This document shows, one piece after another, positions 2,455 through 18,854 of a stretch of DNA of 64,000 nucleotides. The notes beneath the pieces were generated by a model, which saw only the letters and a program-made list of their open reading frames with translations, searched no databases and was not told the origin of the DNA. Location: assembly GCA_013151645.1 (NCBI GenBank), contig JAADHU010000051.1, positions 62,001-126,000 on the forward strand. The letters are read 5' to 3'. How positions within the stretch are numbered: position 1 is the first letter of the stretch; each line of letters starts with the position of its first letter. Both the position numbers and the translations under genes were made by a program. Origin of the DNA: Gammaproteobacteria bacterium. Lineage in GTDB: Bacteria; Pseudomonadota; Gammaproteobacteria; Steroidobacterales; Woeseiaceae.

Positions 2455-4083
2455 CTATACCGTATCGCGCTCAACGATGCCGTCGATGGCATGGTAAGCC
2501 GAAAGAATGGCACCTTCCTGCCAGCCCTGCAAAATGCTCAGGTGCTCACCGGCAAAAAATATATTCTCATCGGCCGTCAACAAGACGCCGGGATCTGACG
2601 TCCCCCAGGCGCCCAGTTGAAACGGGATCTTTGGCCACGATACGGTAATACCCCGGCTCACCTCGTTCGCGTATTCTGAGTGCAGGTTCGCCCCCGCGGT
2701 GATGCTGGTGCTCAGACGCTGTTGTACTGTCTGGTTGGAAAAATTGTTCCCGGCCACACCGCCAAACATATAGGCACCAACCAGGATGCCGCTGTCTTTA
2801 CCGTAGCGACTATTGGGGTACCAGATCTGGGTGATGTCCTGCGTCGTCCAGGAAATACCGCCATAGATATTGTGATCCTGTTCCCAGAATCGTCGAGACT
2901 GAAAGGCCACTTTGCCGGCCGCCGCGTAACTGAAACCATTGATGGCGGCTTGATGCGATGCGGAAAAGTCATTGGCAATATTGCGTAATACCGTGGCTGG
3001 AATCGTACATAGGCAGTAGTCCGCATCCATACTTGAAGCCGTGCCAAATCTGTCCTGATAAACCACCCGAACCCCGCCAACGATCTTGCGCACCTCGCTC
3101 ACGACCGCTTCATAAACGATATCCGTTGCTACGCGCGATTCGAAGGCCCTCGCGATTCGATCCATCCCGCCGATCGGCTGCAGCATGGTCGCTTGCTGAT
3201 TGATCCCCTCCGGGAAATCTGTGCGTAGCTGCAGGAAAGAATCGCGAATCAGGTCTTGTAATTGCGATGGGCTGAGCCGTTCACCACGGCGTCGACTACC
3301 GGTGTTTTCCTGGTCCGGAAAACCCGCGCGACTCGTGCCGGTATAGTCGAACGTGCCATCCAGGTCACCGTAATTTCGCAACATGTTCAGAACATTGGTT
3401 TTGTCGATCGCCGACAATTCCTGGTCCAGCGCATTCTGGCTGACCGCTGTCGCGAGCAAACGTGCAATGTTGCCGCGCGAATCCGCGCGCACGCGACGTA
3501 CTATTTGTGCTTGCCCGTTGAAAGATGCCGAGGAATGCAACAACGCTGCTCGATTGTCATTGATGAAAACCTCAAGGGCAACGCCGAACTCCCGGCAGTA
3601 TCCCAGCAAGAATTCATGGTGGTGCGAGATTCGCGCCGGACCGACATTGAAATAAAGGTCATCGTCAACATCGAACAGGCACATTTGCGAAGAATCCGTT
3701 TCAGTGACCGTATCGCCGGCGCGAATGGTTCGGTTACGACCACCCGCGTTCGGTAGCGCCTCCAGAATCGTGCAGGTATAGCCGAGCTTTTTCATCTCGA
3801 AGGCGGTCGTCATGCCCGCAATGCCAGCGCCGAGAATCACGACAGACTTGCCAATCCCGGCATTGCTCGGCCAGTCGCCGGGCCGAGGTGAGAGAAGGGC
3901 ATTGGGTGGCGGTGGCGGCGGGATGTTCGGCAACCCGGGTTCGGCTGACGAAGATCCGCAACTCGCGGCTACACTGCTGATACCCAGAGCGGTCATTGTG
4001 CGCAGCATGGTGGCGCTGCCCATTGTGTGTCCAATGGTCGCCAGAAATTCCCGCCGCGCCATTGTTTTCTGCTCGGAAGTCAT
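2455..4083 (-). CDS. Tat-exported flavin amine oxidase family protein
   Basis: This 542-residue flavoprotein resembles monoamine/L-amino-acid oxidases. The N-terminus has a twin-arginine motif (ARREFLATI, R10-R11) followed by a hydrophobic stretch and a possible lipobox ending at Cys42 (VAASC), then an unusual run of six prolines at 55-60. The dinucleotide-binding motif GAGIAG is at 85-90 with Glu108 ending the second strand and GGR at 114-116, as in the amine oxidase family. The C-terminal FFAGEHLS segment is the usual FAD-contacting motif. It is predicted to be folded with FAD in the cytoplasm, exported by Tat, and perhaps lipid-anchored in the periplasm. The amine substrate is unknown. It is convergent with ribF. 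Confidence 0.88.
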   Translation of the reverse strand: MTSEQKTMARREFLATIGHTMGSATMLRTMTALGISSVAASCGSSSAEPGLPNIPPPPPPNALLSPRPGDWPSNAGIGKSVVILGAGIAGMTTAFEMKKLGYTCTILEALPNAGGRNRTIRAGDTVTETDSSQMCLFDVDDDLYFNVGPARISHHHEFLLGYCREFGVALEVFINDNRAALLHSSASFNGQAQIVRRVRADSRGNIARLLATAVSQNALDQELSAIDKTNVLNMLRNYGDLDGTFDYTGTSRAGFPDQENTGSRRRGERLSPSQLQDLIRDSFLQLRTDFPEGINQQATMLQPIGGMDRIARAFESRVATDIVYEAVVSEVRKIVGGVRVVYQDRFGTASSMDADYCLCTIPATVLRNIANDFSASHQAAINGFSYAAAGKVAFQSRRFWEQDHNIYGGISWTTQDITQIWYPNSRYGKDSGILVGAYMFGGVAGNNFSNQTVQQRLSTSITAGANLHSEYANEVSRGITVSWPKIPFQLGAWGTSDPGVLLTADENIFFAGEHLSILQGWQEGAILSAYHAIDGIVERDTV

Positions 4084-4227
4084 TTGCCCTCCTCAGACAC
4101 CGAGTAGACGCGAACGCGTCAACCCTGAAATGATGGTGTTTGGAGGTTGAAACCGGAACAAGGTTCCCTTACAAGCCCGGAATCTTAGTTTGCATAGGCC
4201 CGTCGCAGGACCGACAGAACGCCGCTT

Positions 4228-5544
4228 CTACGCAGTGCCGTACTTCGTTTCCACCGTGATACCAACTTCTTTCAGAAAACCTGTTGGCAGTATGCCACCT
4301 GCTGAAACGATAACGGCATCATTCTTAATCGGTATGGATTTTCCTTCCTGCTCGATGAGCACAGAATCCCCCTGAATCGTTTTCACGTTCGAGTTCAGGA
4401 GGATCTGCATTTGCCCCGCTGCCGCCAGGGCCTCAACCTTGTTACGATTCTTGGCCTTGGCTCGCGTAAACGCGGCGGACCGGTACGACAAGGTTACTGT
4501 CGTTCCTGATTGCTCAGCGATACTATGCGCCGCTTCGAGCGCACTATCACCGCCGCCGACGACAAGCACGTGTTGATTTCGATATTGCTCGGGATCAATC
4601 AGTCGATAGACCACCTTTGAATGCTCCTCGCCCGGAACACCCAGTTGGCGAGGAGTACCTCGTCGACCAATCGTCAACATCACTGCGCGGGTTTCATAGG
4701 TGCCCTTGGTCGTCTCGACTTCAAAGCTCGTGCCGTCCGGTTTTTTCGTTATGCCGGTTACCCGCTCGTTATATTGAACCTTCAGTCCAGTCTCGCGCTC
4801 AACCCCATGCCAAAACTCCAGCAGCTTCTCTTTGCTCGTCTCCGTGAACTGCATCATTCCAACAACGGGCAGCAATGCCGGTTTGGTCATGACCAGTTTT
4901 CCTCGGGGAAAGTGGGCGACTGTTCCACCAAGGGAGTCCTGTTCAATGGTGACGTAACGCATTTTTCCCTGCATCGCGCCAAGGGAAGCGGCAAACCCGG
5001 CCGGACCGGCACCGACAATGACGACATCGAATCGACCTGATTTGCCCAGACCGTTGAGCTTTTTGACCGAGTCCATGGCCTGCTTACCTTGTTCGATGGC
5101 ATTTTTTATCAGGCCCATGCCACCCAGTTCTCCTGCGATAAAGATACCGGGTACAGTCGTCTCGAAATTTGGCTGCACCAGCGGTATGTCCACTCCGCGC
5201 CGCTCCGTGCCGAAGACCAGTTGTATGGCGTCGACGGGACAGGCTTTTTCGCACGCCCCATGTCCGATGCAATTGCTCGGCCCGACCAGCCTCGCCTTAC
5301 CACGAATAATCCCCAGGACAGGATGGGCATTCTGCTCCGGACACGCTGCAATACACGAACGACAGCCGACGCACTTGTGGATATCGATCACCGGGTGCAG
5401 CGACGGTGGCTCAAGCATGCTGGCGGCAATTGCCTCTTCCGCCGCCAGCAGGCTTGCCCGTTCCCTGCGCATTCTTGAGCGGATGTACCACACAAAAATC
5501 GCAAGGATGGGCACCAAATATAAGGTAAGTAGCAGCGGACTCAT
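4228..5544 (-). CDS. Membrane-anchored ferredoxin/FAD-NAD(P) oxidoreductase, apparently circularly permuted
   Basis: This 438-residue protein starts with one transmembrane helix (residues 3-20), then a ferredoxin domain. The first cluster motif is complete (C58, C61, C64, C68). The second is C92, His95, C98, C102, with His where the second Cys is expected. Residues 128-158 (TTVPGIFIAGE and following) look like the C-terminal FAD-contacting piece of a thioredoxin-reductase-like enzyme, yet they come before the FAD motif GAGPAG (178-183) and the NAD(P) motif VVGGGDSA. The protein ends just where that piece would normally follow. No redox CxxC is visible. It lies divergent to the multiheme cytochrome genes, and I infer that it moves electrons between NAD(P)H or ferredoxin and that chain. 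There is no close family I can name. Confidence 0.8.
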   Translation of the reverse strand: MSPLLLTLYLVPILAIFVWYIRSRMRRERASLLAAEEAIAASMLEPPSLHPVIDIHKCVGCRSCIAACPEQNAHPVLGIIRGKARLVGPSNCIGHGACEKACPVDAIQLVFGTERRGVDIPLVQPNFETTVPGIFIAGELGGMGLIKNAIEQGKQAMDSVKKLNGLGKSGRFDVVIVGAGPAGFAASLGAMQGKMRYVTIEQDSLGGTVAHFPRGKLVMTKPALLPVVGMMQFTETSKEKLLEFWHGVERETGLKVQYNERVTGITKKPDGTSFEVETTKGTYETRAVMLTIGRRGTPRQLGVPGEEHSKVVYRLIDPEQYRNQHVLVVGGGDSALEAAHSIAEQSGTTVTLSYRSAAFTRAKAKNRNKVEALAAAGQMQILLNSNVKTIQGDSVLIEQEGKSIPIKNDAVIVSAGGILPTGFLKEVGITVETKYGTA

Positions 5545-6063
5545 GGATTTTGATAGTACTTAAAAAATGACGAATGAACGGTAGCAGTGACAGGGCCGTC
5601 ATTGACACGGCTTCCTTCACATTATCGGTAACTGACACCCCCTGTAGAATGCATCTTGTGCCAGCCGATAGCGGGGCGATCAAGTTCCAACAGCGGAACG
5701 GAGTCGCACGATAAAATTCTGCTCCTTGTTCAACATCAACGGCTGAAACATTCCGGACGACGGTTAATTCGGCAGGCGCTACAGCAGTGGGGCTGCTTAT
5801 CGCAGAAAACATTTTGCCGAGGAAAATACGAATCATTACCATTTGCGAACTAACTGCTTGAAAGAAAATGGGTTTGCGAATTGTGTCGCAATTCGACGAC
5901 AAAAAATGCTTGTTTTTCAGGGTATTAGCGAAGAATTTTTTCGAAAATCACGGAACCCTTTACGGTATGAATTCGTCAAGTTAAGGAGCTACCGGTATTG
6001 CGGCTTGGTGCAGCGACATTTTTTGAGCATCAGGAAAACGTAACTTTAGTCAATGGAGATGAC
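5545..6063. other. Divergent intergenic region of about 520 bp
   Basis: This gap separates the oxidoreductase from the cytochrome locus and is visibly AT-richer than its surroundings. I find no convincing gene in it. It holds a perfect 7-bp inverted repeat (CGAATTG / CAATTCG, 5-bp spacer) at 5877-5895 that could be an operator. A TTGAT-AGTA-CTTAA sequence near 5552 only weakly resembles an FNR/Anr box. Promoters for both directions are expected here. Confidence 0.5.
5877..5895. promoter_or_regulatory. Inverted repeat, candidate operator upstream of cytochrome locus
   Basis: CGAATTG and CAATTCG form perfect 7-bp arms around TGTCG. The site lies about 170 bp upstream of the first plus-strand gene of the cytochrome cluster and in the only long AT-rich gap of the region. 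No regulator can be named, and a chance palindrome is possible. Confidence 0.3.
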
Positions 6064-6897
6064 ATGAGCGTACTATTTTTTGTGGTTGCGTTAGCGATGT
6101 CGATGCTTGCTGTCGCGATCGTCGCCAGACCGCTGATTTCCGTAGCAAGCAATCACGATAGGGGATTTGCACGACTACCGTTGCTAATTGTCGTCACCGT
6201 CGTTCTTCTGGCGATTGGACTTTATGCCATTATCGGTCGTCCGGATGCCACTTTTTCGTCAGCAGGTCGCGAAACCGGCATGGGCAGTTCACCGCCGGCC
6301 ACCACAACCGTGGCTGACAATAAGGTCGGCTCAATCGCGAGCCTGCTCGGTGGGCTGGAAGAAAGGCTGCGGCGCGAGCCGAATGATGCCGATGGCTGGT
6401 TGTTGCTCGCGAAATCCTATCAACGACTTGGCCAATTGGCGGAGGCCCGTGATGCCTATGCGAAAGCAAAAGCGTTAGGTCAGAGCGATGCCACGCTCGA
6501 ATCGTCTTTGACGGGTGACCATTTGCCTGCCAAAGGGGCCGTGGAAATCCGTGGACGCGTCAGCATTGCGCCGGATCTTGCCGCTTTACTGGACGAAGCA
6601 GCGACGGTATTCGTGTTAGCAAAAGCCGTCAACGGATCGCCAATGCCGCTCGCTGTTCTACGCAAACCAGCCGCCGAACTGCCCTTCGAATTTACGTTGA
6701 CGGATGAAATGTCCATGGTACGAGGCGGTGGCCTGTCGAGCGTTCCGGAAGTTATTGTCAGCGCGAAAATTTCGACATCCGGTGATGCTTTACAAACCGA
6801 TCCCGGCTACGAAGTACACAGTCGCCGGACCGCGACTGCCGACTCGTCTTATCTGGAGCTACGTATAGGCGCTGCCACGTCCACGGAAGATAAATAA
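6064..6897 (+). CDS. CcmI/CycH-like cytochrome c biogenesis TPR protein
   Basis: Start ATG 6064 is chosen because GGAG lies just upstream and the protein then begins with a membrane helix. The 277-residue protein has two N-terminal transmembrane segments (about 3-22 and 38-57), a TPR unit (EPNDADGWLLLAKSYQRLGQ and the helix after it), and a C-terminal CcmI-type beta domain recognisable from TVFVLAKA, MPLAVLRKP and the LPFEFTLTDEMSM segment. CcmI presents unfolded apocytochrome c to the heme ligation complex at the periplasmic face. No other ccm gene is nearby, so this is probably an extra copy serving the two heme-rich cytochromes encoded downstream (inference). An 17-bp gap leads to the next gene, consistent with an operon. 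Confidence 0.82.
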   Translation: MSVLFFVVALAMSMLAVAIVARPLISVASNHDRGFARLPLLIVVTVVLLAIGLYAIIGRPDATFSSAGRETGMGSSPPATTTVADNKVGSIASLLGGLEERLRREPNDADGWLLLAKSYQRLGQLAEARDAYAKAKALGQSDATLESSLTGDHLPAKGAVEIRGRVSIAPDLAALLDEAATVFVLAKAVNGSPMPLAVLRKPAAELPFEFTLTDEMSMVRGGGLSSVPEVIVSAKISTSGDALQTDPGYEVHSRRTATADSSYLELRIGAATSTEDK

Positions 6898-6914
6898 CAA
6901 AACGGACTTAGACC

Positions 6915-7823
6915 ATGAATGAGATAGCCATCAAACAGCCGATTGCTTTCGGAGAGAAACCCTCATCCGCGGCGACTCGGCCAAAACGAAAAAAAGACAG
7001 CTCTTTTTGGGGATACACTTCGTTGGCCGTACTAATCAGCATTGGTTGGTTACTGCGCGAAAAACAGTGGATCAATCCGGAACACGGTGTGGGCTACTGG
7101 CTTGGCATCGCTGGCGGATCAATGATGCTCGCCCTCCTTCTGTACCCGCTTCGTAAGCGTATTCGAATTCTCAATCTATTGGGGCCAACCAAGTACTGGT
7201 TTCGCCTGCACATGATCCTCGGCCTCGCCGGCCCGCTATTGATCCTGTACCACTGCAATTTTCAACTGGGCTCCTTTAATAGTCAGGTCGCGTTTTATAG
7301 CATGCTGCTCGTCGCCAGTAGTGGCATCATCGGGCGCCATTTCTACGCGCGCATTCATCGTGGTTTGTACGGCCAAAAAACCAGCCTGAGAGAGTTGCAG
7401 AACGAACTGACCGAGTCAGTTGAGAAAAGCCATGGGCTGGCCAAGTTGATGCCGCAACTGATCGGCAGGCTGGATACCTTGTCGAATGAGTTACAGGGCG
7501 ACCGGGTCACACAGTCTCTGGGTATTGGACGCAGCTTGCGCTGGACCTTCAGCCACCATTTCGTGCGCTTATCTTTGCTCATCACCGCCCGTCGTGAGCT
7601 AAAGGCTGCGGCCGCAACATCTGACGTCATCGCAAGAGACTACAGTCGCTTCAGCCGTCGCACGTCATCGTTCATTCGCGACTATACAAGTCTGATGGGC
7701 AGAGTCGCGCAATTTTCATTCTACGAGCGGCTGTTTGCGCTTTGGCACATCTTTCATCTGCCGATATTTTTCATGATGGTGATTTCGGCACTATTTCACA
7801 TACTCGCAGTACACATGTATTAG
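6915..7823 (+). CDS. Cytochrome-b-like polytopic membrane protein
   Basis: I do not recognise a named family. The 302-residue protein has about five predicted membrane helices (roughly 33-48, 60-77, 97-113, 124-140, 276-298) with a soluble, helix-rich section at 150-265. Histidines sit within or at the ends of helices: H99, H113, H142, H148, and a C-terminal group H278, H281, H295, H300. That pattern suits bis-histidine b-type heme ligation, as in ferric-reductase or b561-type domains. It lies between a CcmI-like gene and a 21-heme cytochrome, so the likely role is to oxidise quinol or accept electrons from the divergent flavoprotein and pass them to the periplasm. That role is inferred. A YedZ-like or cytochrome b561-like protein is the main alternative. 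Confidence 0.65.
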   Translation: MNEIAIKQPIAFGEKPSSAATRPKRKKDSSFWGYTSLAVLISIGWLLREKQWINPEHGVGYWLGIAGGSMMLALLLYPLRKRIRILNLLGPTKYWFRLHMILGLAGPLLILYHCNFQLGSFNSQVAFYSMLLVASSGIIGRHFYARIHRGLYGQKTSLRELQNELTESVEKSHGLAKLMPQLIGRLDTLSNELQGDRVTQSLGIGRSLRWTFSHHFVRLSLLITARRELKAAAATSDVIARDYSRFSRRTSSFIRDYTSLMGRVAQFSFYERLFALWHIFHLPIFFMMVISALFHILAVHMY

Positions 7824-7844
7824 GCCGAAAGGCCTGACGTCAGC

Positions 7845-9410
7845 ATGAACTTGCGGATTTTCTTCACTGGACTGGCCATGGTTTTCGCTTTTCTCAATCC
7901 AGCATCCGGCAATACCGCCGGAATCGAGACTCTGGTCATGCCGGGGAAAGTGATCGAAGGTCACGCAGAAGTCGAATCAGAATGCTCCTCCTGCCACAAG
8001 GCCTTCAAACGTGGAAATCAGCGAACCTTATGCCTTGATTGCCATGAAGATGTTGCACTCGATATCGAACGTACTATCGGTTTTCACGGCCTATTTGACG
8101 CCGCCGGCGAGCATGACTGCGCTGATTGTCATACCGACCATGAAGGGCGTGACGCGGACATCGTGCAGTTGGATGAGAATTCCTTTGACCATACCTTTAC
8201 TGACTTCAACCTACTGGGCAAGCACGCCGAAGTCATTTGTGCGGACTGCCATGCCGTGGGAGAAACTTTTCGCGACGCGCCCGGCACCTGTTATTCCTGC
8301 CACGAACAGGACAACGTTCATGACGAAGTCATGGGCACAGTGTGTGCTGACTGTCATACACCGGTGGACTGGAAGGATGTCGAATTTGATCATGACACTA
8401 CCAACTATCGGCTGCTCGGAAAGCACCAGGAAATTGCCTGCCTGGACTGTCATGAAGACCGGACCTTTCAGAATACCGCGACGACTTGTTACGGCTGCCA
8501 TGCCGAAGAAGACGCACACAACGGGCGCAGCGGACAAGAGTGCGACAACTGCCATAGTCCTTCTGCCTGGACGGATACGAGTTTCGACCACAGCCGCGAT
8601 ACGCAATTCCCTCTTGATGGCAAACACGCCGAGCAATCTTGCGATGGTTGCCACAGCGACGATCCCTTCGCGGATGAACTGCAGAGCAACTGTGTGTCCT
8701 GCCATCTTGAAGACGATAATCACGCGGGAAATTTCGGCGAACAATGTGAAACGTGCCACACAAGCGACGATTGGGTGAAAGTGACATTCGATCACGATGT
8801 CGATACAGGTCACCCGCTCAATGGCGCGCACGAATCCATCGCGTGCGAATCCTGTCACATCGAACCAATCTTCGAAGTGGGGTTGGGATCAGACTGCAAC
8901 TCCTGCCACGAAGAAGACGATGCTCACAAGGGCGAGCAAGGCATGGTCTGCAATGACTGCCACAACGAGGCTTCGTGGCAGGACGATGTCTTTTTCGATC
9001 ACGACCTGACGCAGTTTCCGTTGCTAGGCACCCATGCCTCGACTGAGTGCGATGGCTGTCACGACTCGCATGTTTTCCGGGATGCGCCCGAGGCCTGCGT
9101 GGACTGTCATCTCGAAGAGGATCCGCATGAAGGTCGCTTCGATAGCAACTGTGGCGGCTGCCATAACCCGGTCGATTGGGAAGACTGGCAATTCGACCAC
9201 GATATGCAAACCGATTTCTTGCTCGACGGTGCGCACCTGGCGGTGAACTGCGATGGTTGCCACCGGCAATCGCTCGCAACGATGGCGAAACTCGGTAGTC
9301 GTTGTACGGATTGCCACCGGGCAGACGATATTCATGACGGAGAGTTTGGCTATGATTGCGGCCGCTGTCACTCCGCCGATTCGTTCCGCGACGTAAGGGC
9401 GATCAGATGA
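7845..9410 (+). CDS. 21-heme c-type cytochrome
   Basis: The 521-residue protein has a signal peptide (about 1-22) and 21 CxxCH heme-attachment motifs, counted by eye, spread evenly to the C-terminus. The repeat pattern is one heme motif, an acidic DD/EDxH segment, a second motif, then W-x-x-x-x-F-D-H and L-x-G-x-H before the next. The extra histidines would supply distal ligands for bis-His hemes. The mature protein is strongly acidic. It fits the broad cytochrome c3/multiheme class and is periplasmic or on the cell surface. The stop codon overlaps the ATG of the next cytochrome (ATGA at 9407-9410), showing translational coupling. No substrate-binding active site is visible, so electron conduction is the simplest role. 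Confidence 0.93.
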   Translation: MNLRIFFTGLAMVFAFLNPASGNTAGIETLVMPGKVIEGHAEVESECSSCHKAFKRGNQRTLCLDCHEDVALDIERTIGFHGLFDAAGEHDCADCHTDHEGRDADIVQLDENSFDHTFTDFNLLGKHAEVICADCHAVGETFRDAPGTCYSCHEQDNVHDEVMGTVCADCHTPVDWKDVEFDHDTTNYRLLGKHQEIACLDCHEDRTFQNTATTCYGCHAEEDAHNGRSGQECDNCHSPSAWTDTSFDHSRDTQFPLDGKHAEQSCDGCHSDDPFADELQSNCVSCHLEDDNHAGNFGEQCETCHTSDDWVKVTFDHDVDTGHPLNGAHESIACESCHIEPIFEVGLGSDCNSCHEEDDAHKGEQGMVCNDCHNEASWQDDVFFDHDLTQFPLLGTHASTECDGCHDSHVFRDAPEACVDCHLEEDPHEGRFDSNCGGCHNPVDWEDWQFDHDMQTDFLLDGAHLAVNCDGCHRQSLATMAKLGSRCTDCHRADDIHDGEFGYDCGRCHSADSFRDVRAIR

Positions 9411-11548
9411 TCATGAAAACACACATTGAACCGACTCTTGTCCGTCAGACCGTTTCCGCCGCGTGCCTGTTTGCATTGGCGCTTTTTCTGATCCCGGCCA
9501 GCCTGTTTGCGCAGGAACCATTCGACCATTTCAGCACCGGCTTCAGTCTGGATGGTGCCCACGCAACCGTTGGTTGCGAAGGTTGCCACGCCGGGGGCTC
9601 TTTCGAGGGAACCAACCCGGATTGCGTCAGTTGCCATTCCCGCATTGGTCTCGGTAGCGCCTCCATTAAGCCGCCCAATCATGTTGCATCGACCAACTTC
9701 TGCATTGACTGCCATACGACGGCCGCGTGGAGTCCGGTTGCCTATATGGATCACACGGCGGTCACTGGCAATTGCGGCACCTGTCACAATGGCGTCGTTG
9801 CCACCGGCAAGAACACGACTCACATTGCCAGCAGCGAGCAATGTGATGACTGTCACCAGTCTTCATTATGGACTCCCGCCGTATTTGACCATGCGAATGC
9901 TACTGGCGACTGTTTTAGTTGCCACAACGGCGTAACGGCCACCGGCAAGGGCGCCATACACATTCAGACCACGAACATTTGTGAAGATTGCCATAGCACG
10001 GCGCTCTGGCAACCGGCTACCTTCGTCGATCATACGCAGGTCATTGGCAGTTGCGGTTCGTGCCACAATGGCACAATCGCATCAGGCAAGAACCCGACTC
10101 ACTTCACGAGCAGCGACAATTGCGACGACTGCCACACCACGACGGGATGGCTGCCAGCGACTTTCGACCACGCTAACATCGCTGCCAATTGTTCCAGTTG
10201 CCATAACGGCGTCGATGCGACCGGCAAGAATCCGACACACATCCGGACCACCGAAGTTTGCGAGGACTGCCACAACAGCTCCTTGTGGGCACCGGCCGAC
10301 CTGATTGACCACACCCAGGTACTGGGTACCTGTGGTTCCTGCCACAACGGCACAATTGCTGCGGGCAAGAACCCCACGCATATCATCAGTGGCGACAACT
10401 GTGACGACTGCCATACAACGGTGGCATGGGTACCGGCCAACTTTGATCACGCCAGCATCATTGGTGGCTGCGCGACCTGTCACGACGGCGTTGGCGCCAC
10501 CGGCAAGAATCCGGGGCATATCCAGACCACCAATATTTGTGAGGACTGCCATAACAACACGCTGTGGGTGCCGGCCGATTCGGTCGACCACACGCAGGTC
10601 GTGGGTACCTGTGGCTCGTGCCATAACGGCACCATCGCGACGGGCAAGAACCCGACCCACATCCAGACCGGCAACAATTGCGACGATTGCCATACAACGG
10701 TGGCATGGTTACCCGCCAACTTCGATCACGCCAATATCGTGACGGGGTGTATCACCTGTCACAATGGCAATGGCGCAACCGGCAAGAACCCCACACACAT
10801 CCAAACCACGAACGTTTGTGAAGATTGCCACAACAATACAATCTGGGCGCCAGCCGACACGGTCGATCACACGCAGGTGCTAGGAACGTGTAATTCCTGT
10901 CACAACGGAACCATAGCGACAGGGAAAAACCCGACGCATATTAACAGTGGCAATAACTGCGACGATTGTCATACGACGGTGGGATGGATTCCGGCGTTCT
11001 TCGATCACGTCAATATCGTGGATAACTGTTTCAACTGCCACAACGGGACCGATGCCACTGGCAAGAATCCAACGCACGTACAAACCACCAATGTCTGCGA
11101 AGATTGCCACAATACCAACCTGTGGGCACCGGTCGACACTGTTGATCATACTCAGGTCCTCGGGTCCTGCTCTACCTGCCACAACGGTACGATTGCGACC
11201 GGCAAGAACCAGGGTCACTTCATCACTGCACGGGAATGCGATTCCTGTCATGACACGGCCGCCTGGATTCCCGATAATTTCAGGCATACGACACTGGCGT
11301 ACGAACCGCTGGATCATCGAGGCAACCTGCCTTGTACCGCATGCCACCTGGGCAATGCGGAGCCAGTCAGCTGGTCCTTCCCCGCGTATCAGCCCGATTG
11401 TGCCGGCTGCCACGCCGATGACTATCGACTAAACAAACACGAAGCCGCAGGGGGGGGCTTCGAATCGATCAGCCTGAATCGTAATTGCGCCGGCGCCTGT
11501 CATCAGAAGAATCAGCAGCACCGCATCAGTGATGGAGGCTGGGATTGA
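9407..11548 (+). CDS. 28-heme-site c-type cytochrome with tandem tetraheme repeats
   Basis: Start ATG 9407 overlaps the upstream stop; ATG 9413 is an alternative. The 713-residue protein has a signal peptide ending near SLFAQ, then 27 CxxCH motifs and one CxxxCH (CAGACH, bases 11486-11503) near the C-terminus. Most of the protein is a repeat of two related units of 46 and 47 residues, each with two hemes: a CDDCH unit with FDH and a CEDCH unit with DHTQV, both carrying the CHNG and GKNPTH motifs. Histidines in DH and THI can be distal ligands. The extended repeat architecture suggests a rod or wire of stacked hemes. It is probably periplasmic or exported through the next gene's barrel (inference). 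Comparable proteins are known in metal-reducing and sediment bacteria. Confidence 0.92.
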   Translation: MIMKTHIEPTLVRQTVSAACLFALALFLIPASLFAQEPFDHFSTGFSLDGAHATVGCEGCHAGGSFEGTNPDCVSCHSRIGLGSASIKPPNHVASTNFCIDCHTTAAWSPVAYMDHTAVTGNCGTCHNGVVATGKNTTHIASSEQCDDCHQSSLWTPAVFDHANATGDCFSCHNGVTATGKGAIHIQTTNICEDCHSTALWQPATFVDHTQVIGSCGSCHNGTIASGKNPTHFTSSDNCDDCHTTTGWLPATFDHANIAANCSSCHNGVDATGKNPTHIRTTEVCEDCHNSSLWAPADLIDHTQVLGTCGSCHNGTIAAGKNPTHIISGDNCDDCHTTVAWVPANFDHASIIGGCATCHDGVGATGKNPGHIQTTNICEDCHNNTLWVPADSVDHTQVVGTCGSCHNGTIATGKNPTHIQTGNNCDDCHTTVAWLPANFDHANIVTGCITCHNGNGATGKNPTHIQTTNVCEDCHNNTIWAPADTVDHTQVLGTCNSCHNGTIATGKNPTHINSGNNCDDCHTTVGWIPAFFDHVNIVDNCFNCHNGTDATGKNPTHVQTTNVCEDCHNTNLWAPVDTVDHTQVLGSCSTCHNGTIATGKNQGHFITARECDSCHDTAAWIPDNFRHTTLAYEPLDHRGNLPCTACHLGNAEPVSWSFPAYQPDCAGCHADDYRLNKHEAAGGGFESISLNRNCAGACHQKNQQHRISDGGWD
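9701..11236 (+). repeat. 279-bp in-frame tandem repeat in cytochrome gene, about 5.5 units
   Basis: The first codon of the CDDCH motif falls at 9842, 10121, 10400, 10679, 10958 and 11237, exactly 279 bp apart each time. A half unit of 141 bp (CIDCH) precedes it at 9701. Each 279-bp unit encodes 93 residues and four heme sites, made of a 138-bp and a 141-bp half. Copies share whole protein motifs but differ at many synonymous positions, so the duplications are not very recent. No length change breaks the register. Confidence 0.93.
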
Positions 11549-14076
11549 CTAGCGGCCAGCACGTGCCGGTCCCATCAGTCATGAGTAGACTATTGCGACA
11601 ATTGAGGTTCCTGGTAATCGTGACCAGCGGCCTGCTGACTGCCACAGTTGCGATCGCAGGACCCGGCTTCATATCAGGCACCAGAATCTCGAAAGGTAAC
11701 TTTCTCGCCGAGATTACCGTTCAATTCAATTGCGGCGTCCGATACATCGATCATGAGCCCGCCAAAGGTGGCGATCAGATGAGGATTCGACTGGAATCCA
11801 CGGGAATATGCCGCGGCGTCTCTCCGCTGGTCGAAAATATTCGCGAGCAATATCGACCTGCCGATGCCGACAATGCGAAGCTGGTCAATCTTGAATACGA
11901 TGGCGAAACGCCAGCCGGGCCGTTGTTGCGATTGGATTTTAGCGAGCCCGTTCGGTTCGCGATCAGACCGTCGTCAGATGACAACACAATAGCTATCCGC
12001 GTTTACTTCGATGCAGCCCAGGTGACATTGGCCGAACCAAGATCGACCGGGCGAAGCAGCCGACGTGTTGCGCCACCGGCGGAACGTACCGCACGATACG
12101 TCATCAACCTTGCTTCGTCGCGCAGACCGCCCGGCACGGCTGACCTGCCGAAATTCGCACTGGATTCTTATCAATCAGTGTTCGTCTCAGAGGCGATCAT
12201 CGATCAGGCCACCTGGTACCGCCTGCGACTCGGGTACTTCGAATCCGCCCGGGATGCCTCGCGGCAATTGGCCCGCGTGCGCAAGCAGTACCCAACAGCC
12301 TGGATCGACCGCGCTTCCGGCGAGACGACGACCGTGGCGGACGTCGCCGCACCCATTACCAAACAGCAATCGCCGGAAGGGGCTGCAGTCACCCGGCGAA
12401 CGCCCGCAAACGCGGCAGGCCTCGTCGGTAAGTCGACTCATGGTCCTGACAGCGAAGCAAAACTGGCAAAGCTCATGCGCGATGCCCATCGGGCGATGAC
12501 CGCGGGCGAAATATCCCGTGCCGTGCAGATCTACACCAAGGTTCTGCAACAACCGGCGAATCAGTATCAGCGACAGGCACAAGAGTATCTTGCGTTAGCA
12601 CGTGAAAGAAACGGGCAAACAGCCCATGCGAAAGCGGAGTATCAACGGTATTTGGCAGTCTACCCGGATGGCGAGGGCACCGCCCGAGTCCGGCAAAGAT
12701 TGTCCGCTCTGCTGTCAAAAACCAGGCAGCGAAGTACGGTTTCCGGTCAGGCGGCCGATGGCCGCAGGGACGCAGAGGTCAACCCGTGGAATATTCGCAC
12801 GTTTTTCTCTCAGTACTATCGGCGCGACGTTAATCAGCCGGATGGGAACGACGACATTATCAGCCAATCCTCTGTGTACTCGGACATCAATATCGATGCC
12901 CGGCGACGTGGCGAACGCTATGATTTTTCTTCCCGAATAACGACCGGCTACCGAAACGATTTCCTCGCCAGCTCTCGCAGTGGCGGTAACGACCTGCGAC
13001 TCTCGTACGCCTATGCCGACCTCGCCGATAGCAAGACGGGGTTGCGCGGCCGGCTGGGTCGCCAGTCCCGGAGCAATGGTGGCGTGCTGGGTCGATTTGA
13101 CGGCATCAATTTCAGCTACCAGGCCAGCGAAAAACTGCGCGTTGATACTGTACTCGGAAAACCGGTGTATTCGACTGCTGACGGCGTGAACAACGAACGA
13201 ACGTTCTACGGTATCAGCTCGAATTTTGGCCCCATTGCCGACGGTCTTGATATTGGCCTGTTCTTTCTTCAGCAAGATATCAATGGCATTGGCGACCGCC
13301 ATGTCGTGGGAAGCGAAGTCCGATACTTTGCGGAAAACAAAAGCCTGTGGGGACAAATTGACTACGATACTTCGTTCAAGGAATTCGGCAGCATGTTCCT
13401 GCAAAGCAGCTGGCGGTTGCCATCGAAGCTCACGATATCCGGAATACTCGACCGCCGCAGAAGCCCCTTCCTGAGTACGGGCAATGCGGTGATCGGCCAA
13501 TCGGAATTGTCCTTCGGGGAACTTAGTGCGATTTTCACTGAGCATGAACTCCGGCAGTTGGCCCTGGATCGGGCGGCGCAAACCACAACCATAACCCTGG
13601 GGCTGTCACGGCCGCTCACGCCCAAGCTGCAGATCAATCTGAACGCCAGTGAATCGGCCATCGCCGCAACACCGGCGTCCGGCGGCGTGGCCGCGACACC
13701 TGCGACGAGCTACCGCTACTATTCGGCTGACATGGTAGCGAGCAGCCTTATCGCGCAAGGCGATGTCACCATCTTCGGTGTGCGCTATGCAGATTCGGAC
13801 AGCACCAAGGTCTGGTCACTTAACCTGGACACACGCTTTCCGCTTGGCCGATCGTTGCGTATCAACCCACGAATGCGGGTGGACTACCGACAAATCAAAT
13901 CGGACCTGAGTAGCGAATGGATTCTTACGCCCGGGCTACGACTTCAGTATCGCTGGGGTCGGAAAGTCCGGCTCGAATTTGAGGCTGGCAAGCGATTCGC
14001 TAACCGGACTTTCGCTGAATCTGATATAAAGCGCCAATCCTATTTTATCAACTTCGGTTATCAGATATTCTATTAG
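11545..14076 (+). CDS. SPOR/TPR/outer-membrane beta-barrel protein of cytochrome locus
   Basis: I chose TTG 11545 because GGAGG lies 6-7 bases before it and it overlaps the upstream stop (TTGA); ATG 11581 is the alternative. The 843-residue protein has a signal peptide (to about 39), a beta-rich domain at 45-160 vaguely like AMIN domains, an SPOR-like segment at 184-258, a TPR region at 303-390, and from about 418 alternating strands with the look of a porin barrel, ending in aromatic GYQIFY as outer-membrane proteins do. Its position directly after two giant cytochromes suggests a role like MtrB/PioB, a barrel that seats or exports a cytochrome. There is no clear homology to MtrB by eye. A generic surface-exposed TPR-barrel is the alternative. 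Confidence 0.72.
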   Translation: MTSGQHVPVPSVMSRLLRQLRFLVIVTSGLLTATVAIAGPGFISGTRISKGNFLAEITVQFNCGVRYIDHEPAKGGDQMRIRLESTGICRGVSPLVENIREQYRPADADNAKLVNLEYDGETPAGPLLRLDFSEPVRFAIRPSSDDNTIAIRVYFDAAQVTLAEPRSTGRSSRRVAPPAERTARYVINLASSRRPPGTADLPKFALDSYQSVFVSEAIIDQATWYRLRLGYFESARDASRQLARVRKQYPTAWIDRASGETTTVADVAAPITKQQSPEGAAVTRRTPANAAGLVGKSTHGPDSEAKLAKLMRDAHRAMTAGEISRAVQIYTKVLQQPANQYQRQAQEYLALARERNGQTAHAKAEYQRYLAVYPDGEGTARVRQRLSALLSKTRQRSTVSGQAADGRRDAEVNPWNIRTFFSQYYRRDVNQPDGNDDIISQSSVYSDINIDARRRGERYDFSSRITTGYRNDFLASSRSGGNDLRLSYAYADLADSKTGLRGRLGRQSRSNGGVLGRFDGINFSYQASEKLRVDTVLGKPVYSTADGVNNERTFYGISSNFGPIADGLDIGLFFLQQDINGIGDRHVVGSEVRYFAENKSLWGQIDYDTSFKEFGSMFLQSSWRLPSKLTISGILDRRRSPFLSTGNAVIGQSELSFGELSAIFTEHELRQLALDRAAQTTTITLGLSRPLTPKLQINLNASESAIAATPASGGVAATPATSYRYYSADMVASSLIAQGDVTIFGVRYADSDSTKVWSLNLDTRFPLGRSLRINPRMRVDYRQIKSDLSSEWILTPGLRLQYRWGRKVRLEFEAGKRFANRTFAESDIKRQSYFINFGYQIFY

Positions 14077-14078
14077 TC

Positions 14079-14666
14079 ATGCGCCATTTCCGGCAATCGG
14101 TTTCTCTGCTGCTCGCAGTACTCATCGCAACGATCGGCGGTTGCGGTTCAACCGGAACAGTGATTCAGAATACTCTGGATCCGGTAACCGGCATTACGAT
14201 CACCCATGCCGACGTTCCGATGCTCTTTTATCGAGACAGCTCGGCACGGGCCGCCTACGCACGCGATTTCGTCAATCTGGGGCCGATAATGATCAATCGA
14301 ATGGGCCAGTACCGGTATTTCCTGTGGCTGGCTGCCTGGGGCACGATACAGAACAGCCATTTGACTGAAGCACGCGATGGTTTCGAATCGATTATCGTGT
14401 TTGTCGATGGCGAACCCCTGGGACTCACTAGTGTCGGCTGGGCGCCCGAGACGATTGGCGCGTCGGCATCGGTATACATCAAGCCGGTCACATCGGCAAC
14501 TGAAGCATACTACGAAGTAACTGCGGACCAGTTACGCCTGATTGCCGATGCAACCGATGTCAGGCTGCAGTTGACCGGATCAGCGACTCGCGCTTACGAA
14601 CCCTGGGATAGCCAGACATCTGCTCACGCCAGTCTACGGGCATTTCTTGAGTTCGTGAGCTATTGA
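14079..14666 (+). CDS. Lipoprotein of unknown function, end of cytochrome operon
   Basis: This 195-residue protein starts 2 bp after the barrel gene. It has a lipoprotein signal with lipobox IGGC (Cys at about 22) followed by GSTGT, with no Asp at +2, so outer-membrane sorting is likely. The remainder is a compact alpha/beta domain without cysteine, so it carries no heme. It has tryptophan-containing strands (WLAAWG, VGWAPE) and no motif I recognise. Its position as last gene of a tight operon suggests an assembly or accessory role for the barrel or cytochromes, by inference only. Confidence 0.75.
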   Translation: MRHFRQSVSLLLAVLIATIGGCGSTGTVIQNTLDPVTGITITHADVPMLFYRDSSARAAYARDFVNLGPIMINRMGQYRYFLWLAAWGTIQNSHLTEARDGFESIIVFVDGEPLGLTSVGWAPETIGASASVYIKPVTSATEAYYEVTADQLRLIADATDVRLQLTGSATRAYEPWDSQTSAHASLRAFLEFVSY

Positions 14667-15048
14667 GAAAACCGTCGCTACCGCTGAAATTCACGCAAGC
14701 AGAGCGACTCGTATCCGAATACGGCACGCGATCCGGGTTCCGGTCCGGGTCATAGCGAGACCGGGTTCGTGGCGAGCCGACACAGCCACGGAGACCAAAG
14801 GCCGAGCCGCACCGGATGCGACGGCGATTGACCTGATTGAGGGGCTTCGTGCGCCCTGCCCGGATACCCCCCACACCTAGTCGCAGGCTCTCTGAAATAC
14901 CCAACGCTTGACGATGGGAGTGATTTTGTCCCCATTTCGTTCAGAAATACCAGTGAAATCAGCATTCTGTGACGTATTTCGCACCCGCCGAACGGGCAGC
15001 CGCCTAAGATATGTCAAGTTAACAAGACTGACACAAGACCGATCTGCC
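14667..15048. other. Intergenic region of about 380 bp
   Basis: This gap separates the end of the cytochrome operon from a secreted protein gene. Several short open frames cross it on the minus strand, but they have arginine-rich, unlikely compositions and no ribosome-binding sites. I see no strong terminator hairpin with a T-run and no RNA gene. Confidence 0.4.
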
Positions 15049-16533
15049 ATGAGGAATGAACCTCTGTCCAACGTGCCGCGCTGGCAACGAATACTGCTGT
15101 GGTCAGTATGCGTACTGCCATGCCTGGGCTATGCTGCGCCGGGCGACATTCTTTTCAGTGATAATTTCGAACGCTCAAACCTCGCTCCATGGACGACGAC
15201 CAACCCCGGCGTTTCCGGAATAATGACCGGTGGACAAACATCCAACTCCCCGAATCGCGGCGCGTTTACTCGCAGTCGCCCCGTCGCGATTACAAGCCCG
15301 GCGTTTAATGCCGCCGTACCGGCCGCACAAGTCAGCGTCTGGGTTCGTCGCGGCAGCGATGCCTTCAGCGAATACCCGGACTCCGGTGAAAACCTGGTCA
15401 TCGAGTACCGTCGTGCGGACAACAGCTGGGCCGCGCTGGCAACCTTTCTGGGCGGCGGCTCACCCGGGCAGGTTTTTCTGCCAACACTGGCATTGCCGCC
15501 CGACGGACTGCACGGTTCACTGGCCATCCGCGCGCGACAAACCGGCGGTAGCAACGGCAACTTCGACTGGTGGCACATCGACGACGTGGTTGTTACCGAG
15601 ACCGCTCCGCCGGTGCCGCTAACTGTCGGTAGCTGTGACAATTTCGAATCAGGCCTCAGTGGCAACTGGTCGATAAACCAGTTCAGCGGCTTCGCTGGCA
15701 CCAGCGCTGCGACGTCGCAGTCGCCGGTGTTTTCTCTGTTCCTCAACGGCGGCGTTGTTGAAGTGACTTCGAGTGCAATTGATACGAGCGACCTGTCGTT
15801 CTCGGATATTTCGATGTGGATTCGGCGTGGAGCCGACGCGTTTAGTGAAGACCCCGATAACGTCGAAAACCTGGTGATTGAGTATTTGAATGACGGCGGT
15901 GGTTGGACCGCGCTGGAAACGTTCACCGGCAATGGCGCTCAGGGGCAGATATTCCTGCGTACGTTCAATATACCGGCGGCCGGCCGTCACGCCGGTTTTC
16001 GACTGCGATTCCGCCAGACCGCAGGGTCCGGCGCGGGATGGGATTTCTGGCATATCGACGACGTCTGCATGAATCAAGTAATGCGACCGGACCTGCTGGT
16101 AACCAAATCAGTACAGACGGTGTCAGACCCAGTTAACGGCAGTAGCAATCCGAAAGCGATTCCCGGCGCCATCATGCTGTATACGATTAATGTCTCGAAT
16201 CAGGGCCCTGGCCCGGTTGACAACAACAGCCTGGCAATTACCGATATCGTCCCTGCCGACAGTGCACTGTTTGTAGGCACCAGCGGCGGCGACCCAATCG
16301 TTTTTGCCGATGGCGCGGTCGCCAGCGGCCTTAGTTACAACTTTGCCAGTGATGTTACTTTTAGCAGTCAGCCAGGTGGTGGAACGCCGTTCACTTACTC
16401 GCCAACACCCGATGCCCAAGGCTACGATGCGGCGGTCACGGGCTACCGCGTCAACCCCGCCGGCAGCATGAACGCTGCGGTCGGTAGTGCTTTTCCCGCT
16501 TTCAATATTCTGCTGACCGTCAGAATCCAGTAA
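15049..16533 (+). CDS. Secreted protein with two MAM-like domains and a DUF11-like domain
   Basis: ATG 15049 is preferred because it places a signal peptide (to CLGYA|AP) at the start of a 494-residue product. Two homologous domains of about 155 residues follow: each opens with a DNFE motif, has WVRRG/WIRRG-x-DAFSE, a VIEY strand and ends WWHIDDV or FWHIDDV, the usual end of MAM/concanavalin-like adhesive domains. The last 150 residues resemble a DUF11 repeat (LLVTKSVQTVSDP, YTINVSNQGPGPV, ITDIVPADSA), common in bacterial surface proteins. No sorting anchor is visible. The protein is probably extracellular and adhesive or structural. A link to the neighbouring cytochrome operon is possible but unsupported. 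Confidence 0.78.
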   Translation: MRNEPLSNVPRWQRILLWSVCVLPCLGYAAPGDILFSDNFERSNLAPWTTTNPGVSGIMTGGQTSNSPNRGAFTRSRPVAITSPAFNAAVPAAQVSVWVRRGSDAFSEYPDSGENLVIEYRRADNSWAALATFLGGGSPGQVFLPTLALPPDGLHGSLAIRARQTGGSNGNFDWWHIDDVVVTETAPPVPLTVGSCDNFESGLSGNWSINQFSGFAGTSAATSQSPVFSLFLNGGVVEVTSSAIDTSDLSFSDISMWIRRGADAFSEDPDNVENLVIEYLNDGGGWTALETFTGNGAQGQIFLRTFNIPAAGRHAGFRLRFRQTAGSGAGWDFWHIDDVCMNQVMRPDLLVTKSVQTVSDPVNGSSNPKAIPGAIMLYTINVSNQGPGPVDNNSLAITDIVPADSALFVGTSGGDPIVFADGAVASGLSYNFASDVTFSSQPGGGTPFTYSPTPDAQGYDAAVTGYRVNPAGSMNAAVGSAFPAFNILLTVRIQ

Positions 16534-16660
16534 CGCAAGGGCTGACGATAGATTTCGCGGTGCTCGCCGCGATTTGGCAAACAATCGCCATTCCAATAAT
16601 ATTCATTCTGAACGGACGTGATAACCATCGCGTACTTAAATATTCCAAGTGGAGATATTC

Positions 16661-17677
16661 ATGTTAACGACGCGTGTTTTTGTCACGGTTCTGCTTATAT
16701 CGATCTTCAGCACGATATCGCCGCCCGGTGTCGCGGCCACCGGCGACGACACAATCAAACTGACGTTTCTTGGTACCGGAGCACCGCGTCCGTCACACAC
16801 TCGCTACGGACCCTCGATTCTCCTTGAGGCCGGCGAGCACAGGATACTGGTCGATGCCGGCCCCGGCATGCGCGAACGACTGTTCCAGGCGGGTGGCTTC
16901 GAACTGCTCACGGATATCGATCATGTCTTGCTGACGCATCTGCATTTCGACCACACCATCAGCGTGCCGGGGTTGTGGTTGACCGGCTGGTTGTACGGCC
17001 GCAAGACACCGATGACAGTTTACGGACCGACGGGCACCGCGGCAATGATGAAGCATTTCAGGGCCGCATACGACTGGGATATCCGCTACCGCGAGATTGT
17101 TGGCGTGCATAAAGAAGGATCGGATCTGATCGCCCATGACGTCAGTCCCGGAGTCGTATTCGATAAAGACGGACTAAAAGTTACGGCATTCAATGTTGAG
17201 CACATGCCGATCAATGTTGAGACTGGAGAACTGCTGGGTCTCGAAGGCGCGACGATCGGCTATCGCATTGACTACAAGGGGCGATCCGTTCTTTTCTCAG
17301 GGGATACGCGATCAACACCGTCCACCCGTATCATCGAACATGGCAAAGGTGTCGATGTGCTCATCCACGAAGTGCAGGTGCCCGCGCCCGGCGACACGCC
17401 GGAAGCCCGACTTGCCAACGTCAGCCTGTCCGTGCATTCAACGCCCGCGCAGGTTGCCTATGTATTTGAAAAAACACGGCCACGCATGGGAGTCTATTCA
17501 CACATCATTCCACCGGAAATCAGTTCGGATGAACTGCTCGGGGCTACCGATTACGACGGCGAGATGATGGTTGCCGAAGACCTCATGACGTTGACAATCG
17601 GTGACGAAATCACAGTCGGGCGCGCTGAGCGCGCAGGCACCGACATATTTACCGAAGCGGACGTCGTCGACAAGTAA
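16661..17677 (+). CDS. Secreted metallo-beta-lactamase-fold hydrolase (RNase Z/arylsulfatase-like)
   Basis: ATG 16661 is chosen for the GGAG seven bases upstream. The 338-residue protein carries a signal peptide ending near GVAAT and then an MBL fold close to the RNase Z/arylsulfatase branch: FLGTGAP, LVDAGPG, the metal site THLHFDHT, FSGDT with the metal-bridging Asp, and a distal IHEVQ segment followed by HSTPAQVA. Because it is exported, tRNA processing is ruled out; a periplasmic ester, sulfate-ester or lactone hydrolase is more likely. Length and layout are normal for exported family members. The substrate is unknown. It appears monocistronic, followed by the palindromic element at 17702. 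Confidence 0.85.
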   Translation: MLTTRVFVTVLLISIFSTISPPGVAATGDDTIKLTFLGTGAPRPSHTRYGPSILLEAGEHRILVDAGPGMRERLFQAGGFELLTDIDHVLLTHLHFDHTISVPGLWLTGWLYGRKTPMTVYGPTGTAAMMKHFRAAYDWDIRYREIVGVHKEGSDLIAHDVSPGVVFDKDGLKVTAFNVEHMPINVETGELLGLEGATIGYRIDYKGRSVLFSGDTRSTPSTRIIEHGKGVDVLIHEVQVPAPGDTPEARLANVSLSVHSTPAQVAYVFEKTRPRMGVYSHIIPPEISSDELLGATDYDGEMMVAEDLMTLTIGDEITVGRAERAGTDIFTEADVVDK

Positions 17678-17701
17678 GCGCAGTCGCGCGTCTGATCAAC
17701 A

Positions 17702-17866
17702 AGCAGCCTGTTGAAAAACGCCGTTTTTCGACAGGCTGCGTACGGTACAGGGATGTACCGTCATTTTCGCTGGCTGCGAGCCATTAAAAATGTGAGCAAT
17801 TCGAAAACCACGTTTTTGAATTGCGGTGTTGAAAATACCATGGATGATTTTTTTCAACAGACTGCT
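17702..17866. repeat. 165-bp composite palindromic element (MITE/REP-like)
   Basis: The ends AGCAGCCTGTTGAAAAA and TTTTTCAACAGACTGCT form terminal inverted repeats with one mismatch. Inside are three hairpins: 17703-17739 (GCAGCCTGT arms with A/T-rich inner stem), 17743-17760 (CGGTACA/TGTACCG with loop GGGA), and 17796-17824 (GCAATTCGAAAAC against GTTTTTGAATTGC, one mismatch). It has no coding capacity. The right end overlaps the stop codon of the convergent VOC lipoprotein gene. The design fits a nonautonomous mobile element or REP-type repeat; it may also terminate transcription from both flanking genes. No clear target-site duplication is visible. Confidence 0.7.
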
Positions 17867-18854
17867 AGGGCGCCGCGATCATCTCCACCAACGCGGCATT
17901 GACCGGAATATCTGAAAACACGTCCCACTCCAGGTAATAGCCTGCCGGGTCATAGGCTACGAAAGCCCGGTATTCGTTTTCGACTTCAATGGTTTTCGAG
18001 CGCATCTCCACACGATCATCATTGCTCAGGTATTCGTACCATCCGTCAATATTGTCCGTGAAGAACGACAGCGTAACTGCTTTCTCCTCGGTAAAACGAT
18101 GCATTCCGCGTTGTTCATCCACCAGGCCAAAGTATCCACTGGGCCCGATTCGATAAATTTTTGTCCACCCCTGATCAACGAGTAAATCGAAACCCATGAC
18201 GTCCTCGTAGAATTTATGCGTACCCGGCATGTCTTTGTAGTAGAACCAGACCACGGTTGCCTTAAAGCCTAGTCCTGCAGGTACGTTCGACGTTCCCGGC
18301 TCTGGATAGAGCGTTGGCGTCTCCGCGAGGATGGGCAACAATCGCCTGTTCTCTGCATGGTCATTGAATCGCTCGAATTCAAGCAGGTACCCCTCCGGGT
18401 CGATCGCGACGAAACTGTCGTGTGAACTGCCCTTAACGAGGTTGAATTCCGTTGACCGTAAAGCGACGTTCTGCGTTTGAATGTAGTTCCACCACCCGTC
18501 GAGGTTATCCGTCACCAGTGCAATCGTCGTCGTTTTCGGTTCCGACGAAGCATGCATACCTTTGGTCTCATCCACCAGCGTGACAAACGATTTCGGCGCG
18601 ACCTGCATGATCTTCGCAAATCCATAATCGGCCGCAACCCGGAACCCCAGCACGTTACGGTAAAACTCAGTAGCGGCGTCGACGTCCCGGTAGTATAAAA
18701 AGACATTGCTGGCGGTGGTGCCGAATGCTTTCAAAGGATCGACTGATTCGGCCTGATCCAGTGCGAGAGTCGCGCGCGACGACTCGCCCTCAGGACTGCA
18801 GCCTGTAAGCAGAAGTGCATAGAGAAAAAACGAAAGCACCACTTGATAACGCAC
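17865..18854 (-). CDS. Double-VOC-domain lipoprotein
   Basis: GTG 18854 is chosen because GGAG lies eight bases upstream and the product then starts directly with a lipoprotein signal (lipobox LLTGC, Cys19). An upstream ATG at 18911 is possible. The 329-residue protein contains two VOC/glyoxalase units; each has an FYYRDVDAATEFYRNVLGF or FYYKDMPGTHKFYEDVMGF opening and a FVAIDPEGYLLEFE or FVAYDPAGYYLEWD closing segment. A tandem VOC pair gives one complete barrel site, as in extradiol dioxygenases and bleomycin-resistance dimers. Lipid anchoring places it in the envelope, which is unusual for this mostly cytoplasmic fold. The substrate is unknown. Confidence 0.82.
   Translation of the reverse strand: MRYQVVLSFFLYALLLTGCSPEGESSRATLALDQAESVDPLKAFGTTASNVFLYYRDVDAATEFYRNVLGFRVAADYGFAKIMQVAPKSFVTLVDETKGMHASSEPKTTTIALVTDNLDGWWNYIQTQNVALRSTEFNLVKGSSHDSFVAIDPEGYLLEFERFNDHAENRRLLPILAETPTLYPEPGTSNVPAGLGFKATVVWFYYKDMPGTHKFYEDVMGFDLLVDQGWTKIYRIGPSGYFGLVDEQRGMHRFTEEKAVTLSFFTDNIDGWYEYLSNDDRVEMRSKTIEVENEYRAFVAYDPAGYYLEWDVFSDIPVNAALVEMIAAP

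Follow-up and report, generated by a model that had tools for sequence, protein, structure and literature searches.

The locus at positions 4,228 to 14,666 of the 64,000-nucleotide stretch analyzed here (the window; Woeseiaceae, contig JAADHU010000051.1) is firmly a member of PCC3, a kind of electron conduit published by He et al. in 2017 (PMC5566968), and it includes a ferredoxin/flavoprotein (FerFlav) that appears to be an almost obligate fifth component of this system. We lean toward reading the locus as a PCC3 conduit with a dedicated cytoplasmic electron-entry protein, fed by NAD(P)H along a path resembling that of NADPH oxidases (NOX). No flavoprotein is named for PCC3 in the portions of the main text available for PMC5566968, PMC10734462, PMC12442390, PMC8788666, PMC12016527, PMC12175321, and PMC13386937, an earlier mention in supplements or figures being possible; statements attributed to these papers below refer to the same portions. 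As far as seen in this main-text literature, with supplements and figures outside its coverage, FerFlav as an almost obligate component is new, as are two secondary points, namely a rule of one constant and one variable heme wire with a five-heme core, and a SPOR/TPR barrel. A "4Fe-4S ferredoxin" protein cluster from 41 genomes (PMC10734462) could be related to FerFlav. The source genome comprises 3.96 Mb in 83 contigs. An initial annotation, made from the sequence alone, had placed seven parts in the locus, and gene content, motifs, and family matches agree with each placement:

4228..5544, minus strand: ferredoxin/flavoprotein, FerFlav (Pfam Fer4_10, 1.3e-10; Pyr_redox_3, 4.5e-41; conservation of Cys and His95; hydropathy peak at 3-21)
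6064..6897 (approximate), plus strand: CcmI/CycH-like cytochrome c maturation protein with TPR and Ig_CycH (Ig_CycH, 1e-25; proposed start ATG at 6064, the open reading frame (ORF) opening with TTG at 5998)
6915..7823, plus strand: PCC3 inner membrane protein (IMP), a proposed di-heme b protein (two WX3HX13H motifs and SGXXG)
7845..9410, plus strand: inner cytochrome with 21 hemes in three-heme repeats, probably periplasmic (21 CXXCH; motif spacing)
9407..11548 (approximate), plus strand: distal cytochrome, probably trans-barrel and extracellular (27 CXXCH and one CX3CH; homologues of variable length; proposed start ATG at 9407, the ORF opening with TTG at 9356)
11545..14076, plus strand: outer-membrane barrel with a periplasmic beta domain, SPOR, and TPR (SPOR, 1.6e-5; AlphaFold2 model)
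14079..14666, plus strand: small lipoprotein (lipobox IGGC read by eye; a weak DUF6507 match below cut-off)

Neighboring genes on the plus strand, CcmI through lipoprotein, overlap or are separated by fewer than 25 bases, so that the annotated tight spacing is borne out by the coordinates, as are the SPOR and TPR parts by family matches. Cytochrome_C7 is also among the Pfam families matched in the locus. FerFlav is encoded divergently, and its proposed start lies about 520 bases from that of CcmI. Because the identical order recurs in many other genomes, the arrangement is not due to chance.

FerFlav and the conduit are linked by their co-occurrence. In a sample of 60 related genomes, the window's own included, the IMP was matched in 22 at E 1e-3, 16 of these strongly (E below 1e-60, a line drawn after the list had been seen); FerFlav (E 1e-60) was found in exactly these 16 genomes and in none of the other 44. 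The six weaker matches include a second IMP family, as seen beside decaheme cytochromes in three loci (L029, L031, L032), and one PCC3 IMP truncated at a contig end (G039). A class-wide draw of 370 genomes of at least 90% completeness, in which only the best few candidates per genome were scored (six for IMP, four for FerFlav), gave a similar picture: at E 1e-20 for IMP and E 1e-60 for FerFlav, IMP was present in 39 genomes and FerFlav in 41, with FerFlav in 38 of the 39 IMP genomes as opposed to 3 of the 331 others (Fisher p ~4e-47, a value that ignores kinship). A few genomes are common to both samples. Two of the three FerFlav-only genomes (G143, G322) hold short pieces, and in the third (G180) the match is part of a 780-residue frame. 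FerFlav lies on another contig than IMP in four genomes (G017, G060, G133, G297), and the presence of PCC3 is patchy even within one family (14 of 37 in f1). Gene distribution thereby lends strong support to the connection with NAD(P)H or ferredoxin that the initial annotation suggested.

Gene order was compared in 80 loci, the window and 79 others, kept as the best 80 of 290 matches and therefore biased to near relatives; two of them (L055 and L088) come from a single genome. FerFlav is clear in 72 of the 80, being upstream and divergent in 63, upstream and codirectional in 8, and downstream in 1. Five of the remaining eight have less than 1.5 kb of upstream sequence, one of these (L086) with a 95-residue FerFlav fragment, and three (L085, L088, L111) have more than 9.6 kb; in the genome of L088, FerFlav adjoins the other PCC3 copy. 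Loose counts, in a set where many loci are cut by contig ends, were 79 for the inner cytochrome, 71 for a distal-type cytochrome, 52 for CcmI, 51 for the barrel, and 34 for the lipoprotein. Some of the proteins counted as CcmI, mainly from Alphaproteobacteria, are longer and differently placed, and could be standard CcmI.

FerFlav begins with a hydrophobic helix at residues 3-21, as judged by hydropathy, followed by two iron-sulfur motifs, C58-C61-C64-C68 and C92-H95-C98-C102, in the second of which His95 replaces one cysteine. The C-terminal part is an FAD/NAD(P) domain whose nearest structures, by sequence search, are YpdA, thioredoxin reductase, and ferredoxin-NADP reductase. All seven cysteines and His95 are conserved across 41 aligned FerFlav sequences, except that C61 is absent in one. 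Since these residues are kept, the second cluster is predicted to be Cys3His-ligated, the ligands being assigned from motif position. NADPH instead of NADH as the cofactor is a guess. Beyond the seven ligand columns, no column carries cysteine in 15 or more of the 41 sequences; with only ligand columns rich in cysteine, FerFlav lacks a conserved redox CXXC of the thioredoxin-reductase type, which argues against a role as a disulfide reductase.

The IMP of the window has 302 residues, with WX3HX13H motifs at 95 (W95/H99/H113) and 277 (W277/H281/H295) and SGXXG at S136-G140. The four histidines (99, 113, 281, and 295) and the other motif residues are invariant in 17 aligned sequences, the window's included, and the 16 relatives share 35-69% identity with the window copy. 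A single ORF carries both motifs in 79 of 80 loci; in the remaining one (L061) it is cut. The IMP is the annotated histidine-rich membrane protein and is proposed to bind two b hemes. A simple hydropathy scan marks about three regions; the published PCC3 IMP has five transmembrane helices. In one locus (L021:11306-12094, on a contig shared with L060), a second IMP copy lies between FerFlav and CcmI; it lacks the middle loop and may be a duplicate in decay. Overlong ORFs in L108 and L110 had suggested an IMP-cytochrome fusion, which was checked and rejected. In NADPH oxidases or ferric reductases and in MsrPQ, a cytosolic flavin feeds a di-heme b membrane protein and electrons move outward. The pairing of FerFlav with IMP is analogous to these systems, with no match of the IMP to such Pfam families by which sequence membership could be claimed.

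Assignment to PCC3 rests on several shared features. The published system has an IMP of about 300 residues with two WX3HX13H motifs and SGXXG, a porin, and a very large distal cytochrome; its median heme counts are 21 for the inner and 34 for the outer cytochrome, with a median of 26 residues per heme (range 22-39) (PMC5566968). The window has the same IMP motif, a many-heme inner cytochrome with few residues per heme, a distal cytochrome of repeated hemes, and an adjacent barrel. Bradyrhizobium sp. STM 3843, named as a PCC3 carrier (PMC5566968), has a cluster homologous to the window's (L094), in which FerFlav lies beside the IMP, the inner cytochrome has 18 hemes, and the locus end truncates the distal cytochrome. 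In contrast, FerFlav, CcmI, the lipoprotein, and the SPOR/TPR arm are unnamed in the main text of PMC5566968, whose figures and supplements were not covered, and published porins have up to 42 transmembrane regions (PMC5566968) where 22 strands are predicted for the window barrel. PCC4, which shares an IMP with the same histidine motif and has iron-sulfur and redox proteins nearby, lacks an extracellular cytochrome and has three in the periplasm, with 4, 5, and 10 hemes (PMC5566968), whereas the window has two cytochromes of 21 and 28 sites and thus falls outside PCC4.

The initial annotation had proposed a separate, larger-cytochrome type of conduit. It is indeed distinct from MtrCAB and PioAB, but it is not newly found, being the PCC3 of 2017. 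The window shares with MtrCAB, MtoAB, and PioAB a barrel and a periplasmic multiheme cytochrome, and with MtrC an outer cytochrome. However, its cytochromes have 21 and 28 sites, not 10, and the barrel has no match to the MtrB/PioB model (TIGR03509) among its NCBIfam matches at E 0.1. The MtrA/DmsE model (TIGR03508) scores 121.5 bits for the 28-site protein and 23.7 for the 21-heme one, both below the cut-off of 192.2, and membership in MtrCAB/PioAB was rejected on these family models, a check that the annotation had called for. The MtrB barrel has 26 strands, compared with the 22 predicted here. An MtrB search of the window's own genome gave no match, but controls were silent too, so this is no proof of absence.

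The two cytochromes differ in how their heme numbers vary. The inner cytochrome of the window has 21 CXXCH motifs, as annotated, at 24.8 residues per heme, and its N-terminal hydrophobic stretch points to a periplasmic site. The distal one has 27 CXXCH motifs, at 26.4 residues per CXXCH and in 23/24-residue repeats, plus one CX3CH; the annotated 28 hemes hold only if that last site counts. Complete inner cytochromes, a set of 75 from which ORFs truncated at locus ends were excluded, have 21 motifs in 68 cases, 18 in six, and 22 in one, and the spacing recurs as about 17/18/33, a three-heme unit. Gallionellaceae inner cytochromes have 21, 24, and 27 hemes (PMC10734462), again steps of three. 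By comparison, 49 complete distal cytochromes range from 5 to 51 motifs. Their first five hemes are spaced 16-26-24-23 in 59 of 66 sequences, a spacing kept in minimal five-heme forms (L068, L086, L088), and most later hemes follow at 23- or 24-residue steps. We infer that the width of the periplasm sets the heme number of the inner wire, and that the first five distal hemes would sit in the barrel with the rest projecting; cytochromes spanning the periplasm had already been proposed for PCC3 (PMC5566968, PMC10734462). This gives a testable picture in which one wire of 21 hemes is cut to the width of the periplasm while an outer wire of 5 to more than 50 hemes evolves freely in length. The idea that the distal heme count is always even was dropped (26 even versus 23 odd of 49). 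One distal cytochrome, cut by the locus end in Bradyrhizobium sp. BR13661 (L097:12469-20813), already carries 98 or more heme motifs over 2781 residues; in 2017, the largest number known to He et al. was 85 (PMC5566968). Three loci (L065, L068, L071) combine a five-heme minimal distal cytochrome with a separate 27-heme cytochrome of about 830-900 residues, which in L068 has other spacing; the arrangement looks as if the outer wire had been split into two proteins.

For the barrel, an AlphaFold2 model from 45 sequences (mean predicted local distance difference test, pLDDT, 85.2; predicted template modeling score, pTM, 0.55) has a beta domain on the periplasmic side together with SPOR and with TPR helices. 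We count 22 membrane strands in its strand listing, and the barrel is predicted with confidence. SPOR was detected in 33 and the commonest TPR model in 32 of the 45 members. Because SPOR domains bind peptidoglycan, the barrel is likely anchored to it. Fold searches with Foldseek and VIA-align returned outer-membrane barrels of a general kind (top Z 18.2; a BT1762-1763 chain and the CymA porin) and thus leave the barrel without a family; MtrB is absent among the listed rows, which excludes nothing. Neither outcome that would count against the initial annotation, a barrel from an unrelated transport family or an unconserved gene order, was seen. A second Ig_CycH protein is encoded elsewhere in the genome, making the CcmI of the locus an extra copy. 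A lipoprotein homologue lies 3' of the barrel in many loci.

On the simplest route through the conserved redox parts, electrons would move from NAD(P)H by way of FAD, the iron-sulfur clusters, the IMP, the 21-heme cytochrome, and the barrel to the outer wire. NAD(P)H would reduce FAD on membrane-anchored FerFlav, from which electrons would pass through two [4Fe-4S] clusters, one of them His-ligated, and reach the pair of b hemes in the IMP, a transfer comparable to that in NADPH oxidases or MsrQ. The IMP would contact and reduce the 21-heme cytochrome spanning the periplasm, which would hand electrons to the first five distal hemes seated in the 22-strand barrel, and they would exit along the repeated hemes and reach a partner outside the cell, such as a mineral. 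The arm with SPOR and TPR may tether the barrel to peptidoglycan, the CcmI copy may assist in loading 49 hemes, and the lipoprotein may cap or lock the barrel. Flow from NAD(P)H to the outside is downhill in potential and follows the membrane potential, a situation known from NADPH oxidases. Flow from Fe(II) to NAD(P)+ through the same parts would oppose both, and no energy source for it is apparent; uptake, if any, should stop at quinone. The steady presence of FerFlav, together with the downhill outward run, argues for electron export or redox balancing. PCC3 occurs in many Proteobacteria and has been proposed as a route of iron oxidation; FerFlav would provide a concrete entry point and predicts a direction. 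Put more boldly, and only tentatively, PCC3 may be a trans-envelope NAD(P)H oxidase, with a split NOX-like module (FerFlav and the di-heme b IMP), a periplasmic heme ruler of fixed length, and an outer wire of tunable length whose first five hemes span the barrel, and not mainly an iron-oxidizing quinone reductase.

Several observations weigh against an outward, NAD(P)H-fed path. One genome (G228) has an IMP without FerFlav, the genomes of L085 and L111 have an IMP but no FerFlav at E 1e-40, and G039 has a PCC3 cluster, its IMP cut by a contig end, with no FerFlav at threshold; in G089 a TGA splits the FerFlav frame, and the match comes in two parts. The IMP has no Pfam or NCBIfam match at 0.1, its relatives match DUF4405 weakly (5 of 17, best E 0.015), and a search of solved structures gave no relevant match. 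The 21-heme protein, whose structure the annotation had also hoped to see predicted, gave a poor AlphaFold2 model (pTM 0.34), and a fold search with it gave no useful match (two matches, best E 4.9), so that the idea of a periplasmic ruler rests on heme counts. PCC3 has been called functionally unverified (PMC12442390), it occurs in iron oxidizers, and its discoverers modeled inward flow to quinone (PMC5566968).

In that published model, Fe(II), minerals, or similar outside donors deliver electrons through the IMP to quinone and FerFlav would be a side branch or regulator, which we consider unlikely, if well worth weighing. The occurrence of PCC3 in Sideroxydans, Leptothrix, and Gallionellaceae (PMC5566968, PMC10734462) and its above-mean expression in Sideroxydans strain CL21 (PMC12442390) agree with it. 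However, both PCC3 clusters of strain ES-1 are down-regulated on Fe(II) (PMC8788666), and on magnetite PCC3 proteins show low to intermediate abundance, the listed outer cytochrome goes undetected, and Mto proteins rise (PMC12016527); the model also leaves the near-obligate FerFlav unexplained. That the cytochromes serve as an envelope electron store (a capacitor) or a route to a soluble acceptor, and not to outside solids, is improbable: the hemes are very many, and storage has been suggested for PCC3 (PMC10734462), but a family barrel is present in 51 of 80 loci, many others being cut by contig ends, and the inner heme number is nearly constant while the outer varies. Slightly more improbable still is that FerFlav acts off the electron path as a thiol-disulfide reductase in cytochrome c maturation, as the neighboring CcmI-like gene and the thioredoxin/YpdA-type reductases among its nearest solved structures might suggest, given that its 41 aligned sequences share no redox CXXC and that it tracks the PCC3 IMP.

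The locus gives Woeseiaceae a specific candidate conduit; a paper on the family names mtrCAB and outer-membrane multiheme cytochromes, PCC3 being unmentioned in the text seen (PMC12175321). The window's own genome holds a second electron-transfer-like cluster (L029; G000:C63:25000-44500, 3719-19236), which encodes a TPR/SlipAM-like protein, FecR, a 790-residue flavin/cNMP-binding/ferredoxin protein, a distant IMP, an FHA-decaheme cytochrome, an HbpS-like protein, and a 1253-residue LVIVD-decaheme cytochrome; the pairing of flavin and iron-sulfur parts with an IMP is common to this cluster and PCC3. Two further frames, of 801 and 334 residues (G000:C31:3052-3795 and G000:C82:18355-18960), have decaheme-cytochrome matches below cut-off. 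Just beyond FerFlav in the window lie genes for FAD synthetase/riboflavin kinase (1458-2396) and a flavin amine oxidase (2455-4083), and ORFs near FerFlav in three other loci (L013, L015, L017) resemble the latter in length. On the other side, directly 3' of the lipoprotein, an ORF at 14908-16533 matches Reelin subrepeat B.

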